This document shows positions 949 through 10,175 of a stretch of 11,353 bases of DNA, one piece after another (the stretch's first letter is position 1; each line of letters opens with the position of its first letter). This DNA is from Candidatus Latescibacterota bacterium (GTDB lineage Bacteria; JAAXHH01; JABIQT01). Position numbers and translations under genes: made by a program. The DNA lies in NCBI GenBank assembly GCA_018667995.1, contig JABIQT010000393.1, positions 1 through 11,353 of the forward strand, written 5' to 3'. The notes below the pieces were generated by a model. The model searched no databases, was not told where the DNA came from, and saw only the letters and a list, made by a program, of their open reading frames with translations.

Positions 949-2577
949 ATGCGTAGCGCCTTATTCGCAATATCCTTGTCACTTGTACTGTTTATCACTG
1001 AAGTACGGGCACAATCGGTACCGATTATCGATACGATAGCGGGCGTGGGGGAAGATTACCCTGGTGACGGAGGCCCAGCGACTCAGGCGCAGCTGAGCGG
1101 CCCGGTAAACGTACATGTGGGCTCTGACGCGACAATATACATCGTCGATTGGAGCGACGATGTGATCCGTACCGTCAGCCCGGAAGGCACCATATCCCTC
1201 TTTGCCGGCGATTACAGCGCCGGGTTTCTCGGAGACGACGGTCCGGCAACACTGGCTCAGTTGAACTCTCCCACCGACATCGTGGATGACGGCGCCGGAA
1301 ACCTATACATAGCCGACGGCGGCAATAACCGCATACGAAAGGTGGACGCCTTCGGAACGATCACTACCGTCGCCGGAACCGGCATTGTCGGACATTCAGG
1401 TGATGGCGGCCCGGCAACACTGGCTATGATGGATAATCCGTCGGGGTTGGCGTTCGATTCATCCGGTAGTCTCTTTATTGCGGACTATGGCAATCACGTC
1501 ATTCGCAAAATCGATACTAACGGCGTCATCACAACTGTGGCCGGGACCCCAACCGTTTCCGGATTCAGCGGGGACGATGGTCCAGCCACCCAAGCTCTCA
1601 TGGAATATCCCACAGCACTCGCTACCGATACTGAGGGTGGCATCTACTTCACAGAGGAGTCCAATCATACCATTCGAAAGATAGCCACCAATGGCACACT
1701 CGTTCGCATCGCGGGAACGGGTAGTGCTGGCTTCTCCGGAGATAATGGTCCAGCCACTCAAGCCTACCTCTCTCTATGGTGGCCTACGGGGCTCGATGTG
1801 GATCACCTGGGCAACGTTTTCGTCACGGACACCTTCAATCATAGAGTTCGAAGAGTAAATACGGACGGTTTCATCTCCACGGTCGCTGGGACGGGAACAC
1901 CCGGCTATGACGGCGACGGAGGACCTGCTACTTTGGCATCGATAGATGACCCCATGGGATTAGATGTGGACAATGAAGGTAATATCTACTTTCCGGAATG
2001 GTCCAACTCGACGGTGCGTAAGGTGTCAGCGCTTCCATCCACCGATGTACAGCTCCATTTCAGCGAGTCATTCGGAGGGCCAGGTGATCTCGCCACCGTG
2101 AACTTGACGGTAACCTCGGGGATTCCTATCGGTGGGCTCGAGTTCACCATTCTACCTGAACTCCAGTTCTCAGAGAGCAATGCCCCTCTCACTCCCGGTC
2201 CACAGCCTGTTGTATTGGAAGGCATCATCAATGATCTGGAGAATGAAGGCGTGTCTGTGTTCCATAGCACAGACCCATCAACAGCAATTACCACCATAAT
2301 CGTTGTCAGCATAAATGGATCGGATATAGGCCCGGGGGACCCGCAGGTTTTGGAGCTGGTATACAGGATCGATGAACAGATTGCACCTGCAGCACGAGTT
2401 CACATACAGGTAAACGATGTCCTCGTCTCTTCCACGGAAGCTACCGTGCTGACACATAGCACCTTCCCCGGATTCATACACCCGGATTCATACAGGTGGG
2501 CAGAAGTGGCGATCTTGCCGGCGGCAACCATAGTGGTGGTGATGGCACGATCAACATCCTGGATATCGTCAGACTAA
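949..2577 (+). pseudogene. N-terminal part of a frameshifted secreted NHL-repeat/cohesin-like protein
   Basis: This is the first part of a gene that runs to 3440 but is broken by a frameshift near 2481; as read it makes 542 residues. The ATG at 949 is chosen because it opens directly on a Sec signal peptide (about residues 1-21, hydrophobic core, cleavage after VRA); the ribosome binding site is weak. Residues 24-360 contain six NHL repeats of about 56 residues. Each carries a GDxGPAT motif, a GN-Y/F-I/V-AD-like strand and an IRK(V/I) strand ending in TVAG, as expected for a six-bladed beta-propeller. Residues 365-500 look like a cohesin-type beta-sandwich (VQLHFSES, GLEFTI, VLELVYRID). Residues after 510 (FPGFI) are out of frame: they read as unrelated sequence and stop at 2575-2577, so the dockerin and sorting domains are lost. 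The truncated product would be exported by Sec but lack its T9SS signal. It could be a pseudogene, a phase-off state of a switchable gene, or an assembly error. Confidence 0.8.
2467..2494 (+). repeat. Perfect 14-base tandem duplication at the frameshift
   Basis: The unit CCCGGATTCATACA occurs at 2467-2480 and again, identical and directly adjacent, at 2481-2494. Fourteen is not a multiple of three, so the extra copy moves the reading frame. Up to the end of the first copy the reading frame encodes sensible protein (HSTFPGFI). With one copy deleted the frame continues as CAG-GTG-GGC (QVGRSGDLAGG) straight into the dockerin repeats. The duplication therefore explains the frame break fully. Such direct repeats typically arise and are lost by replication slippage. 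Confidence 0.92.
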
Positions 2578-3440
2578 TCAATTACATACTCGAAATCCTG
2601 CCTGAACCGGCGATTGAGAGTTTTTCATTCTGGACGACTGATGTCAATTCTGATGGCACCATTGACGTTCGCGATCTGGTCGGTGTGATTCAGCAGGCCC
2701 TGGCCGAAGCCCCCTCGGAAACACCGGCAAAAACACTGGCGTTGGCTTCGGCAACGACAGTTACCATGGGTCTTGGCGCGGTGGTGACGGATCGAACCGG
2801 GCAACGGTACATCCCTGTGGACCTCACATCTGATGGAGATGTAAGTGGGATGCAGTTCAGCATACATGCAGACCCGGCCACTATATTGCAGGGTATCCCC
2901 TCTTTGGCCGGGCGAGCGGATCAAATGCAGATACAGCACCACCATGAAAATGGTACGCTTCGCATGGTAGTCTATAGCGCAGACGGGAAGGTTCTTCCTC
3001 AGGGCGTCACTGCTGTGGTGATGGTACCCGTAAAGATTACTGCCAATGCACATCTGGCCTCGTCTGTGACGCTGGACGGCATCATTGTTTCCAACTATTT
3101 GCAGCAAGCTATTCCTGTGACCGTAGCCGAAACAGGACTGAAGCGCAGCTCGGATCCGCCAGTTTTCTCCCTGATGAACAATGCGCCGAACCCGTTTAAT
3201 CCCGCGACGGCAATCGTTTACGAGGTGCCCGAACCCGCGCGCATATCAATAATCGTCTACAACATGCTCGGACAGGAAGTAGCACGGCTGGTGGATCAGT
3301 ACCAGACACCTGGTAGGTACGAGGTACTGTGGGATTCAAGGAATGCGCAGGGATCTCGTGTAACCAGCGGGATCTATCTCTACCGTATGCAGAGCAGTAC
3401 AGGCTTTGTTCAGACTCGCAGAATGACCTTACTCAAATAA
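2496..3440 (+). pseudogene. C-terminal part of the frameshifted protein: dockerin-type repeats, second cohesin-like region, T9SS sorting domain
   Basis: This frame is open from 2460, after a stop at 2457-2459, to a TAA at 3438-3440. The only early start is a GTG at 2496, inside the preceding reading frame and without a good ribosome binding site, so independent translation is unlikely. It encodes two dockerin type I-like calcium-binding repeats: GGDGTINILDIVRLINYIL, then DVNSDGTIDVRDLVGVIQQAL about 30 residues later. A second cohesin-like beta region follows (about residues 595-725 of the restored 825-residue protein, with IPVDLTSDGDVSGMQFSI). The last 90 or so residues form a FlgD-like/T9SS type A sorting domain: APNPFNPATAI, ISIIVYNMLGQEV, GRYEVLWDSRN, V-SGIYLYRM. 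In T9SS bacteria this domain directs outer-membrane passage and surface attachment or release. The domains are intact and show no further stops, which suggests that the break is recent or reversible. Confidence 0.82.
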
Positions 3441-4179: not shown

Positions 4180-4959
4180 TTAGGCCGAGGTAGCTACCAG
4201 TCCGCCATCAACGGGCAATGCTACACCAGTAATACATCCGGCCGCCGGTGAACATAGAAATGCCACAGCCCGTCCAATATCCTCGGGCGTACCGCGGCGA
4301 GCCAACGGAACACCGTCCCCATGAGGCGCTTCCAGACTGCCCTGATCAGGCGGCGGGGTATTGAAGACGTGGTCTGTATCCATGTGCCCTGGCAAAATTG
4401 CATTACAACGAATTCCATGCTCCCCCAAATCGACGGCCATGGATTCCGTCAAACGAATCACCCCAGCCTTGGCCGCCCCATACGCCGCATCTCCCTTCCA
4501 GGCACGTCTGCCGTGGACAGACGACGTACTGACGATGACGCCACCGTGTCCTTGAGCTACCATGGACCGAGCTGCCTGCTGTGAGCAAAGGTAGAAACCT
4601 TTCAGCCCCACGTCGATGTTCTTATCCCAGTTGTCCTCCGTAAGGTCGAGAAATGGTTGTCCGGTGCCCCCATAGGGGTTATTGACCAGGATGTCAATGC
4701 TCCTAAATCGTTTCAAGAATGCTTCAAACATGCTTTTCACCTGAACAACATTCGAGATATCAGCGGCGAAGAATTCAGCATCTCGTCCCATATCCCGGAT
4801 TAGCCCCAAGGTGATCTCCGCATCCCCATCGTCAGAAAGGTCGTTGAAGCCCACATCTGCACCTGCTTCTGCCAGCGCCAGAGCAATTCCACGACCGATG
4901 CGGCGTTTTCCGCCTGTAATGAGGGCCTTTTTGCCAGTTAGATCGTACGGCATTAGCAT
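4180..4959 (-). CDS. SDR-family NAD(P)-dependent oxidoreductase (FabG/pteridine-reductase-like)
   Basis: A 259-residue classical short-chain dehydrogenase/reductase, normal length for the family. The start is the ATG at 4957-4959, because GGAGG (minus strand, 4967-4971) lies seven bases before it; the second ATG at 4951-4953 is too far. The Rossmann dinucleotide motif is TGGKRRIG (residues 15-22), with Arg20 where the consensus TGxxxGIG has Gly; this variant is known from pteridine reductase-like SDRs. ADIS follows (66-69), then NNPYG (93-97) in place of NNAG. Catalytic residues are Ser147 (SSVHG), Tyr160 and Lys164 (YGAAK). The usual Asn of the tetrad (VNLxG) is Gly118 here (VGLKG). The C-terminal part has RCNAILPG, the RRGTPEDIG segment and VDGG. 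It presumably oxidises or reduces an alcohol/ketone in the cytoplasm; the substrate is unknown. It is divergent from the PhyH-family gene, which may act in the same pathway. Confidence 0.88.
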   Translation of the reverse strand: MLMPYDLTGKKALITGGKRRIGRGIALALAEAGADVGFNDLSDDGDAEITLGLIRDMGRDAEFFAADISNVVQVKSMFEAFLKRFRSIDILVNNPYGGTGQPFLDLTEDNWDKNIDVGLKGFYLCSQQAARSMVAQGHGGVIVSTSSVHGRRAWKGDAAYGAAKAGVIRLTESMAVDLGEHGIRCNAILPGHMDTDHVFNTPPPDQGSLEAPHGDGVPLARRGTPEDIGRAVAFLCSPAAGCITGVALPVDGGLVATSA

Positions 4960-5371: not shown

Positions 5372-6208
5372 ATGCCTAAACATCTGAAAGAAGATGCCAT
5401 CGCGCAATATAACCGTGACGGATACTATTATCCGGTCCGCATTCTCGATGAAGAGCAAGTCGCCTACAATCGTGGGCTACTGGAACGTTTTGAAACAGAT
5501 CAGGGGCAACCAATCGGTGGCGCCCAACGCAATAAGTCTCACCTGATTTTCAGATGGGTCGATGACCTTATGAGGAATGACCGGATTCTCGACTCCGTTG
5601 AAGATCTCATCGGTCCAGATCTGCTCTGCTGGAACACGCTCTTCTGGATTAAAGAAGCAGGTAGCCAGAGTTTCGTGTCCTGGCATCAGGATCTTCGGTA
5701 TTGGGGACTGGACGCCAATGACCTGGTCACCGTATGGTTGGCATTATCGCCTGCATCTCTCAAGAGTGGGTGTATGCGTGTGCTTCCGGGCAGCCACAAA
5801 GAGGAGTTGATGCCCCACCAGGATGAGTACAAAACGGACAATCTGTTGACCCGGGGTCAGGAAATCTCTGTGGATGTAGACGAATCAATTGCAGTCGACA
5901 TGCCACTTCTGGCTGGTGAAGCTTCTCTCCATAACGGGCGTCTGGCCCATGCGTCCCAGGCAAATCTCTCAAATGACCGGAGAATCGGTCTCTCGCTACA
6001 CTATATTCCTACACACGCAAAACAAGTGGTCGGCGAATGGGATAGCGCGGCACTGGTCAGAGGCGAAGACCGGTACGGACACTTTTCGCTCGCGCCACGT
6101 CCGTCAAAAGATCTTGATCCTGCCACAGCGTCCTTCCATGAGAAAGCTACTGGTGCGGTGAGAGATGTTTTGTTCAAAGACGCCGAGAAAACCCGACCTA
6201 CCCTCTGA
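5372..6208 (+). CDS. Phytanoyl-CoA dioxygenase (PhyH) family protein
   Basis: A 278-residue protein of the non-haem Fe(II)/2-oxoglutarate-dependent PhyH family, at normal family length. The ATG at 5372 has AGGAG (5360-5364) seven bases upstream. It begins with the family's N-terminal helix (DAIAQYNRDGYYYPVRIL). Iron ligands are His105 and Asp107 in SWHQD, and distal His193 in LAHASQAN. Arg204 in NDRRIGL, eleven residues further, fits the 2-oxoglutarate-binding Arg by analogy with human PhyH spacing (His264, Arg275). Conserved strands include LVTVWLALSPASLKSGCMRVLPGSHK (around 118-143) and GLSLHYIP (206-213). All expected catalytic residues are present, so the enzyme is probably active; it would hydroxylate a small cytoplasmic substrate. 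PhyH-family members of bacteria act on many substrates, so phytanoyl-CoA itself should not be assumed. It is divergent from the SDR gene and convergent with the sulfatase gene. Confidence 0.9.
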   Translation: MPKHLKEDAIAQYNRDGYYYPVRILDEEQVAYNRGLLERFETDQGQPIGGAQRNKSHLIFRWVDDLMRNDRILDSVEDLIGPDLLCWNTLFWIKEAGSQSFVSWHQDLRYWGLDANDLVTVWLALSPASLKSGCMRVLPGSHKEELMPHQDEYKTDNLLTRGQEISVDVDESIAVDMPLLAGEASLHNGRLAHASQANLSNDRRIGLSLHYIPTHAKQVVGEWDSAALVRGEDRYGHFSLAPRPSKDLDPATASFHEKATGAVRDVLFKDAEKTRPTL

Positions 6209-6411: not shown

Positions 6412-7836
6412 TTACCGGGCGGATTCCGATTCCCCTATAAATCGCAGTCGTCTCTGCAGAATGCGCACATGCTCCAAGGTAAGGTGCTCGTCCCACCCGT
6501 CACCTCGGGCCAGCAGTTCGAGATCCCGGATCAGTGATTGTTTACCGGGATCAGAGGCCTGATCATGCCATTCGTGAGGATCCTCCGTCAAATCAAAGAG
6601 CGTGGGCGGATGTCCTGCCGCGAAGCTAGCCTTGCAGCCATCTCGCAGAACCATTCTCATGGGCACGCGGGTACCCACACAGGCATAGTCTGCGATCACC
6701 ACTCTTCCCGGCCAAGATTCACTCGGAGTCTCCACGAGAGGCACAAGTGAGCGCCCAGGCATTTCTTCTATCCAAGATTCATAGCCAGCCAGTTCAGCCA
6801 CCGTCGGAAACCAATCGATGTGGGACACATGCGCGCCACATCTGCTACCACCCTTGCGGTAGTTTGGGGGCACGATGACGAGTGGCGTTCGCACACTATC
6901 CTCATAGAAATTGAGCTTAGACCAAAGGCCATGTTCCCCCAGGTTTTCGCCGTGATCGGACATATATACGATCCAGGTATTGTCAGACATGCCCAGCTCT
7001 TCCAGATGATGCACTAATCGTCCAATCATATCATCAACCTGTGTGATCATAGCATAATAGCAACGGCGGGCCATTCGTACGAGATCGTCGGTGAGCCCGT
7101 CATCCGTCAAGCCCAGAAACTTACGGCTATCGTGGAGTTGCTGCGGAATAAGCGACGCATAGCTCTCTCCGCCTGGCGGCGTTCGGGGCAGCGGGATCTC
7201 CAATCCTTCGTACCTATCGAACCATGGTTGTGAGATCCGAAAGGGAAAATGTGGCTGAAAGAAGCCCACCGTCATGGCCCAGGGATCACTGTCCTGTGCG
7301 CGAGAATCAAGCTCGGCCATGGCAGCGTCAAATACACCACGGTCATAGATTTCTGCTCGTGTGGGCTCGTCTTGGGAGCCCGAGGCATTGACCGCCTCCA
7401 GCATCACATGGCTGTCGACCTGCGGCTCGCCCCAATCGGCATAGGCATGCGGAGAAACAGGATCCGCGCCCGCATACTGTGGAAATATCCGATGCTCGAA
7501 ACCATGCATGGTATCAGGACCGACAAAATGCATGCGTCCACAGATAGTAGTCCGGTAGCCGGCGCGACGAAGCACATGAGACCAGGTTGGCAAATCGCTT
7601 CTCAAGGGCGATCCCAGCTCCCATACGCCGTGCTCGGGCGCGAGCTGCCCGGTCATAAAACTGGCTCGCGAAGGGGTACACATGGGGTAAGCTGAATAGG
7701 CAGAGGTAAATGTCAACCCGCGGTCCATAAGCGCGTTCAGGGCGGGAGTTTGAGCCACTGGATGCCCGAGCTGACCGATGGCATCGGGAGCGTGCTGATC
7801 GCTCATGATAACCAGGATATTGGGCTTTGAAGACAT
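6412..7836 (-). CDS. Type I formylglycine-dependent sulfatase, choline-sulfatase-like
   Basis: A 474-residue sulfatase. The start is the ATG at 7834-7836, with GAAGGG about ten bases upstream. The N-terminus NILVIMSDQHAPDAIGQLG supplies metal ligands Asp13 and Gln14. The signature CTPSRASFMTGQ starts at Cys53, the residue that is converted to formylglycine in active enzymes. TTICGRMHFVGPDTMHGFEHR (96-116) resembles the corresponding block of choline sulfatase (BetC); the usual active-site Lys is Arg101 here. YMSDHGENLGEHGLWSK (291-307) supplies Asp294, His295 and Lys307. There is no signal peptide, so the enzyme is probably cytoplasmic, as BetC is. It would hydrolyse a sulfate ester, releasing sulfate and an alcohol; the identity of the substrate cannot be read from the sequence. 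A formylglycine-generating (anaerobic or aerobic) partner is not in the window. It is transcribed divergently from the NHL operon. Confidence 0.9.
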   Translation of the reverse strand: MSSKPNILVIMSDQHAPDAIGQLGHPVAQTPALNALMDRGLTFTSAYSAYPMCTPSRASFMTGQLAPEHGVWELGSPLRSDLPTWSHVLRRAGYRTTICGRMHFVGPDTMHGFEHRIFPQYAGADPVSPHAYADWGEPQVDSHVMLEAVNASGSQDEPTRAEIYDRGVFDAAMAELDSRAQDSDPWAMTVGFFQPHFPFRISQPWFDRYEGLEIPLPRTPPGGESYASLIPQQLHDSRKFLGLTDDGLTDDLVRMARRCYYAMITQVDDMIGRLVHHLEELGMSDNTWIVYMSDHGENLGEHGLWSKLNFYEDSVRTPLVIVPPNYRKGGSRCGAHVSHIDWFPTVAELAGYESWIEEMPGRSLVPLVETPSESWPGRVVIADYACVGTRVPMRMVLRDGCKASFAAGHPPTLFDLTEDPHEWHDQASDPGKQSLIRDLELLARGDGWDEHLTLEHVRILQRRLRFIGESESAR

Positions 7837-8057
7837 GGTTTCGTTACCCTTCGATAGAGAGATGGTTGGTCAGCATATTATAGACATTTAAGAGAGGTAC
7901 GCAATCGCAATGGAGATTCTGGTTGCCATCAATCGTAGTGACGGATACAATCGTATCATTAAATCGCACCGCCATCATGCTATCTTCTATTATATCGGGC
8001 AAACTGATACTGCCCATCCAAACTGTGTGCCGACAGCATTACGGACTGACATCCAAT
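7837..8057. promoter_or_regulatory. Divergent region between the sulfatase and the NHL operon
   Basis: About 220 bases from the sulfatase ATG to the chosen start of the NHL protein. An AT-rich block, CATATTATAGACATTTAAG (near 7874-7892), is a plausible promoter core for the plus-strand operon, but no clear -35 is paired with it. AGAGAGG (7891-7897) lies 12 bases before an ATG at 7910 that opens a 72-codon frame ending at 8128, overlapping the NHL start. I see no coding character in that frame. Confidence 0.3.
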
Positions 8058-10175
8058 ATGAACATCTCCGAGTATCTTCATTCCCTGGAAAGAGGCAGAA
8101 TATCGACCATCGCCGGCGCCGGATATAGCGATGGCGTCCCTGCCAAAGAAGCCGACGCAGGCTGGCCGCTTGGCGTTGTACGGCGTCCCGACGGCGACCT
8201 GATCGTCAATGACTACTGGGGCCACAGGATCTGGCGAATCGACAAGGAAGGCATCCTGCACAGATTTGCAGGTGATGGGATACCAGGCTGCTCGCCCAGT
8301 GGCTTGCCGGCTCTTGACGCACATCTTCATGAACCGCATGACCTTGCCCAGGATGAACATGGCAACCTCTTCTTTTCCGAATTGGGCGCGAGAAGCAACC
8401 TGATCCGACGAATCGACTATAAAACAGGCGTACTGACCACTGTAGCGGGATCAGGCAGAATAGGACGTGGCGGCGACGGTGGACTGGCCTTGGACGCGGA
8501 ACTCGACTGCGCATGTGGTGTGGCTGTAGATGATCACGGTGACATCTACATTTCCAGTGAATGGATGAATAACATTCGCCGGGTGGACTATAGAACCGGT
8601 CTCATTGATACCGCATATGGACATAGCGCTCGGCACTACCCCAGTGAAGCAGGCGACAGTCGACCGGCGGCCGGACCGAAATTGAGCCTGGGCGGCTACC
8701 ATGGGGATGGCGGTCCTGCGAAAGAGGCAGGTTTCAACCATCCCGAGCATCTTGCCTTCGACTCCCATTACAATCTATACGTTTGCGACAACTCCAACGA
8801 CCGAATACGAAGAATCGATCGTAAGACAGGGATCATAAACACGGTTCTGGGAAACGGTCAACGGTCTTCGAACGGGGATGGCGGCCCAGCAACTGAGGCG
8901 AGCACACTCATGCCCGATGCCATCTGTCTCGACCGTGATGACAATCTCTACGTGGGTGAAAAATACGGCTTTCGCATACGTAAAGTGGAAGCCACTACGG
9001 GACTGGTTACCACCCTGGCAGGAAATGGTGTGCCGGGCTTCGGAGAGGAGGGGCTCCACGGTTCGGAGACCCACTGCAACTCCGTCGAAGCAGGAATTTT
9101 CGCGGATCCCGACGGCACCGTCTTCTGGGGCGACTGTTCGGGCCGTCTCCGGCAGTACGACGGCGAAACTGGTGTCGTAACGACCGTGTTTGGGGGTACC
9201 AGTGTTCATGACGGTGAAATCGCGTCCAACGCCTTTTTCTGTGGTCCGAGCGGCATAGATGTGGATACACAGGGCCATATCTATATCGCCGACACTTGGG
9301 GTCAGCGCATTCGCCGTATCGACCCGCGAACTGGTGTCATAACCACTATTGCTGGCCAAGGCACCCGGGCATACGGCGGTGATAACGGACCAGCGGATGG
9401 CGCCCATCTGGGCAACCCCTATGACGTGTCAGTTGACAGTAGGGGGCGGGTCGTCATTGCCGACAATAGACACGGACATGTGCGCCGGGTAGACGAGGAT
9501 GGCGTGATCAGAAATGTAGCCGGTGCGGCCTATCTATGGGACAAAGGAGATGGTGGTCCAGCTGTCAACGCCAATTTCATCAGCGTCACGTCTGTCGCCC
9601 ATGATCTCCACGGCAATATCTATGTAGGCGATTCTGGTGCAGGACGTATTCGACGTATAGATGCACCTACCGGCGTAATCACCAGTGTGGCCGGAACAGG
9701 AATACCGGGCTACACTGGTGATGATGGCGCCGCCACTTCGGCACGTATCGGCGCCCCGAGAGCTATGAGATTTGATCGTGCAGGAAATCTATTTTTTGCC
9801 GATCGCGCCCACCACACTATTCGAAGATTGGACGCAGTTAGTGGTATTATATCAACGGTGGCAGGCACTGGGACTGCCGGATATTCTCCGGATGGTACTT
9901 ACGCGTTGGGAGCCAATCTCCATGAACCATGCGGCCTGGCCATCTCGGCAGCGGGGGAGATCTACTTCTCGGATACCAGAAACAATCTCGTGCGTCGCAT
10001 CACCCAAAACGGCAGAATAGAAACGGTGGCGGGCTGCTCCGAAGCGGGGGACTATGGAAACCGTTCCTTGGAAGCCGGTCTTAACGAGCCGTATGGCCTC
10101 TGCTTCTTCAGTGAGAATGTCCTTCTAATCTGCGACCATTGGAACAACAAGATAAAGGCCATAAGAACCGAATGA
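8058..10175 (+). CDS. Cytoplasmic NHL-repeat protein with about 12 repeats (double beta-propeller)
   Basis: From the ATG at 8058 this is a 705-residue protein; the frame is open further upstream to 7923, and ATG 7977 is an alternative start. None of these has a strong ribosome binding site. I prefer 8058 because MNISEYLHSLERGRISTIAG leads straight into the first repeat. The rest is twelve NHL-type repeats of about 55-60 residues. The core of each reads GDGGPAxxA, then D-GN-Y/F-ADxxNxRIRR(I/V)D, then TG(V/I)ITTVAG. The motif degenerates in repeats 1, 2, 6, 7, 11 and 12. Repeats 4 and 6 carry small insertions. Twelve repeats fit two six-bladed propellers. No signal peptide or membrane segment is evident, unlike the secreted NHL gene at 949. 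NHL propellers usually bind protein, RNA or small-molecule partners; a peptidyl-alpha-hydroxyglycine lyase role is possible for the family but nothing here singles it out. The stop at 10173-10175 overlaps the ATG of the ACT gene. Confidence 0.85.
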   Translation: MNISEYLHSLERGRISTIAGAGYSDGVPAKEADAGWPLGVVRRPDGDLIVNDYWGHRIWRIDKEGILHRFAGDGIPGCSPSGLPALDAHLHEPHDLAQDEHGNLFFSELGARSNLIRRIDYKTGVLTTVAGSGRIGRGGDGGLALDAELDCACGVAVDDHGDIYISSEWMNNIRRVDYRTGLIDTAYGHSARHYPSEAGDSRPAAGPKLSLGGYHGDGGPAKEAGFNHPEHLAFDSHYNLYVCDNSNDRIRRIDRKTGIINTVLGNGQRSSNGDGGPATEASTLMPDAICLDRDDNLYVGEKYGFRIRKVEATTGLVTTLAGNGVPGFGEEGLHGSETHCNSVEAGIFADPDGTVFWGDCSGRLRQYDGETGVVTTVFGGTSVHDGEIASNAFFCGPSGIDVDTQGHIYIADTWGQRIRRIDPRTGVITTIAGQGTRAYGGDNGPADGAHLGNPYDVSVDSRGRVVIADNRHGHVRRVDEDGVIRNVAGAAYLWDKGDGGPAVNANFISVTSVAHDLHGNIYVGDSGAGRIRRIDAPTGVITSVAGTGIPGYTGDDGAATSARIGAPRAMRFDRAGNLFFADRAHHTIRRLDAVSGIISTVAGTGTAGYSPDGTYALGANLHEPCGLAISAAGEIYFSDTRNNLVRRITQNGRIETVAGCSEAGDYGNRSLEAGLNEPYGLCFFSENVLLICDHWNNKIKAIRTE

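Follow-up and report, generated by a model that had tools for sequence, protein, structure and literature searches.

Does the second of two adjoining 14-base copies, placed exactly where the reading frame of a predicted surface-protein gene breaks, represent a mutation, a reversible on/off device, or a fault of the assembly? This question is raised by a locus in an uncultured Candidatus Latescibacterota bacterium (genome G000), whose 6.06-Mb draft assembly is 85% complete and lies in 1165 contigs. The window, that is, the whole stretch of DNA analysed (11,353 nucleotides), is contig C1037 of this assembly. An initial annotation had proposed that the repeat switches the gene off, possibly reversibly. 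We consider that the locus is best explained by a single, probably recent 14-bp tandem duplication, which has left one member of a large paralogous family with an ordinary loss-of-function allele, and we assign to this explanation a probability of about 0.52.

Gene architecture on both sides of the join

As assembled, the two-copy frame starts with the ATG at 949, ends with the stop codon at 2575–2577, and encodes 542 residues (Table 1). When the 14-mer is counted once, a single frame (949–3440) of 825 residues without internal stops is obtained, just as had been stated in the initial annotation, and its modules follow one another in the order NHL propeller, cohesin-like module, dockerin pair, second cohesin-like module, and T9SS tail. 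The NHL part upstream of the join is recognized by TEN_NHL (E 1e-36) and NHL (E 1e-19). Pfam and NCBIfam place both the dockerin pair (Dockerin_1, PF00404; E 2e-10, 41.1 bits versus a cut-off of 22.9, in two stretches) and the T9SS type A sorting tail (TIGR04183; E 3e-9, 36.5 bits versus a cut-off of 23) downstream of the join, in agreement with the earlier statement that the broken form is deprived of them. The tail is joined to the exported part in the one-copy frame only, which combines type I dockerins with a type A sorting signal.

The list of domains first given for this gene thus stands for the NHL, dockerin, and T9SS parts, all of which are found by Pfam or NCBIfam, but has to be amended for the term 'cohesin'. 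A profile of the first module, built from 11 family members, matches solved cohesins weakly (best matches, E 0.0015–0.06), and that of the second module matches PDB entries weakly as well, the best being a scaffoldin (E 0.14); a single-sequence fold of the first module was too poor for use (pLDDT 41). Because both modules fall below the Pfam cut-offs and the profile of the first is weakly matched to solved cohesins, 'cohesin-like' is, on these comparisons, the right word. T9SS type A cargo proteins bearing dockerins resemble the one-copy frame in its NHL repeats, dockerin pair, and type A tail; the difference is that here dockerin and cohesin-like modules occur in one chain.

Table 1 Features of the interrupted gene (positions in the window)
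Feature	Positions	Strand	Description
Two-copy frame as assembled	949–2577	+	Signal-like N-terminus, NHL propeller, cohesin-like module, out-of-frame tail past the join
First cohesin-like module	2050–2481	+	Upstream of the join; profile from family members
First copy of the 14-bp unit, CCCGGATTCATACA	2467–2480	+	No other copy elsewhere in the genome, one mismatch allowed
Second, identical copy of the 14-bp unit	2481–2494	+	Frame shifted (14 = 12 + 2)
Downstream remainder	2496–3440	+	Stop-free open frame: dockerin pair, second cohesin-like module, T9SS type A sorting tail
Second cohesin-like module	2721–3158	+	Downstream of the join; PF00963 E 0.11, below cut-off

The 14-base repeat at the frame break

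The exact back-to-back repeat that had been noticed at the frame break was found again (2467–2480 and 2481–2494), the lag-14 matching run being exactly 14 bases long, so that the homology does not extend beyond the unit in either direction and the breakpoints are free of microhomology; nothing lies between the two copies. Apart from it, the window contains no perfect tandem repeat that reaches 8 bp, and a few 6- and 7-mers are all that occur besides. As 14 is not a multiple of three, a change in copy number shifts the frame, the product having 825 residues with one copy and 542 with two. A chance origin is ruled out by the expectation of about 3e-5 such lag-14 runs in the window. Likewise, a recurrent mobile motif is ruled out, the 14-mer CCCGGATTCATACA being unique to this site within the 6.06-Mb draft genome even when one mismatch is allowed, and so is a hairpin-driven duplication, the fold energy of the site being the same as that of shuffled sequences (z −0.26).

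Absence of microhomology, with nothing between the copies, would also suit a transposon footprint, namely, insertion of an element with a 14-bp target-site duplication, followed by an excision that left both copies in place. However, no remnant of an element is present, 14 bp exceeds most insertion-sequence target duplications, and loss of a whole element between the copies is rare, so that we regard such a footprint as very improbable.

One copy as the family form

Comparison of the locus with related genomes, which the initial annotation had recommended, places the one-copy form in the family; homologues and paralogues alike fit it in a single frame. The family members in the same genome (contigs C725, C667, C159, C944, C409, C237, and others), each followed to its own stop or to the contig end, and those in related genomes (G001 and others) are single open frames. 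Aligned to the one-copy protein, they pass through the join without a gap and show no length change at a conserved motif, G-x-I-x-V/I-G-x-x-GD, which directly precedes the dockerin pair and where they match the one-copy length. In addition, the 14-bp repeat is absent from the paralogues on 20 scanned G000 contigs containing family members. Because the homologues cross the join in one frame and with the same motif length, the one-copy form is, by sequence comparison, ancestral and the second copy derived; this assignment of the one-copy frame as the family form is the strongest result of the present analysis. The lesion thus has the mark of a spontaneous intragenic duplication, since the unit is exactly repeated in tandem within a frame where relatives show a single copy. 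A search among GTDB species genomes (one genome per species) found no close orthologue, and viral relatives that were looked for were likewise not found.

The single frame of the homologues also bears on the idea that both parts of the gene are expressed as assembled, through −1 ribosomal frameshifting in the overlap or a restart at GTG 2496. The upstream and downstream frames do overlap until 2577, and an AGGTGG sequence overlaps GTG 2496; however, a canonical slippery heptamer (X-XXY-YYZ) is missing from a codon listing of the overlap, the purine-rich stretch runs into the GTG and is therefore wrongly spaced, and a restarted product would be without a signal peptide. Together with the single-frame homologues, these points make expression of both parts the least credible of the explanations considered.

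The half of the protein comprising the dockerin pair, cohesin-like module, and T9SS tail has at least about 29 protein matches each in G000, G001, G011, and G013, and only 2–4 in genomes from genus g3, which belongs to the same order. Such uneven counts across the order point to lineage-specific expansion or loss. Two homologues in G011 (C3:3066-3878 and C53:1554-1772) contain one in-frame stop each (TAA and TAG, respectively) and may be pseudogenes of the same family.

Duplication in the cell or error in the assembly

In the predicted course of events, the 14-bp duplication would have arisen once in a gene, otherwise intact, for an NHL/cohesin-like/dockerin surface protein exported by the T9SS, shifting the frame so that the product would end before the dockerins and the sorting tail. 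The truncated product would presumably stay in the periplasm or be degraded, and the second copy would be real cellular DNA. Slippage could remove one copy and so restore the gene at some low rate, with no need for an evolved switch. A real duplication is supported by a repeat far above chance, the stop-free downstream frame, the preserved GC pattern, and the single-frame homologues, whereas against it stands the fact that the allele is known from one fragmented draft assembly (1165 contigs, 85% complete) only. Short intragenic tandem duplications are a known class of spontaneous mutation (PMC8758062), to which those of Waite et al. (2001 and 2003), as cited in PMC4022640 and PMC4243769, also belong.

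The main competing explanation is an assembly or consensus error, in which the true gene has one copy and is intact, and the second copy stems from a 14-base overlap of contig ends left unmerged or from chimeric or mixed-strain reads. The division of the draft into 1165 contigs, the full preservation of the downstream frame, and the single frames of the other G000 family members (to the stop or the contig end) all speak for such an error; moreover, an unmerged overlap would leave breakpoints without microhomology, as seen here, and would be indistinguishable from this site. On the other hand, assemblers with k-mers longer than 14 normally require reads spanning such a joint. In a sample of the same genome (106 contigs of about 3 kb and longer; 0.66 Mb), perfect tandem repeats of at least 10 bp were not found to break a frame anywhere else, so that an error of this kind would not be systematic. 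We hold an assembly error to be a real possibility, though a less likely one than a true duplication.

Two further perfect tandem repeats of at least 10 bp occur in this sample, one of 10 bp inside an open frame and one of 14 bp, GACAGGATCTTCGT, located near the start of contig C1039 (L095, 33–60). Because a G011 homologue matches the two-copy form of the latter without a gap and in an open frame, this repeat is, by sequence comparison, a natural part of the normal frame and not a lesion. On this sample of 106 contigs, a genome-wide systematic assembly artefact was rejected, no other repeat breaking a frame and that of C1039 lying in a conserved one; exact tandem repeats are thus no systematic fault of this assembly, a further point in favour of a real duplication at the locus studied here. 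As the scan of 0.66 Mb is otherwise clean, there is no sign of a genome-wide contingency strategy either.

If the duplication is real, the locus adds one more natural case of a surface gene silenced by a short tandem duplication and revertible in principle. If it is an assembly error, it is a warning that, in draft genomes, a frame break should be backed by reads before a pseudogene or a switch is called. In both cases, the genome contains intact members of the family with NHL, dockerin, and cohesin-like modules and a T9SS tail at other places.

Possibility of a reversible switch

The reversible switch originally suggested, in which slippage gain or loss of one 14-bp copy would turn surface display off and on and would be kept by selection, is not borne out. 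The geometry of the site allows it: the copies are direct and in tandem, their length is not a multiple of three, and the downstream frame is intact. A precedent is also available in the reverting spontaneous duplications of pneumococcal capsule genes (Waite et al. 2001, 2003, as described in PMC4022640 and PMC4243769). A copy-number change that shifts the frame is likewise shared with contingency loci. However, a tract of three or more units is absent, there being exactly two copies, the family form is single-copy, and no such repeat occurs in the paralogues. Because the one-copy form offers no repeat for slippage, copy gain would be much rarer than loss. There is no hairpin, as indicated by the fold energy given above, and such repeats are enriched neither in the 0.66-Mb genome sample, which contains no comparable frame-breaking repeat, nor in the gene family. 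Switches based on repeats usually depend on several units in a tract. Altogether, a selected switch appears improbable, and the more specific proposal that T9SS display of dockerin and cohesin-like modules is switched by gain and loss of a 14-bp copy, through intragenic duplication rather than a simple-sequence tract, appears more improbable still. Reversion by slippage is physically possible, and this possibility is as far as the claim of switching reaches; evidence of a switch was not found.

The pneumococcal capsule genes (serotypes 3, 8, and 37; Waite et al. 2001, 2003 via PMC4022640 and PMC4243769) resemble the present gene in that a surface structure is lost through a short tandem duplication within an open reading frame and that one copy restores the frame, but according to these citing sources phase variation was observed there in culture, whereas the present case is one assembled draft sequence. 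In the simple-sequence-repeat contingency loci of Neisseria, Haemophilus, and Campylobacter, slippage in a coding repeat likewise changes the frame of a surface protein; those loci, however, are tracts of many short units, whereas here one 14-bp unit is duplicated once and the homologues are without it. Short tandem duplications also arose as spontaneous mutations in the rpmH and rpsC region of Neisseria elongata during laboratory evolution (PMC8758062), but there a drug imposed the selection and the effect of the duplications was tested. The lesion, under the preferred reading of a one-off duplication, is ordinary in kind.

Age of the lesion

No stop and no further frame break occurs in the 314 codons downstream, confirming what had been noted before, and the codon-position GC pattern of this part is that of the upstream part. 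A fixed, long-decayed pseudogene was rejected, the absence of a second downstream lesion and the unchanged codon-position GC giving no sign of long decay. The accompanying claim that the decay is recent is nevertheless loosely bounded, since zero stops in 314 codons would, with no selection acting, still allow up to about 0.1 substitutions per site at the 95% level, tightening to about 0.025 substitutions per site if indels occur at a tenth of the substitution rate, which is an assumed figure.

Neighbouring genes

Positions 7923–10175 of the window encode another NHL-repeat protein (about 700 residues), for which Pfam did not find a T9SS tail. This gene adjoins those of a sulfatase (6412–7836, − strand), a PhyH dioxygenase (5372–6208), and a short-chain dehydrogenase (4180–4959, − strand).
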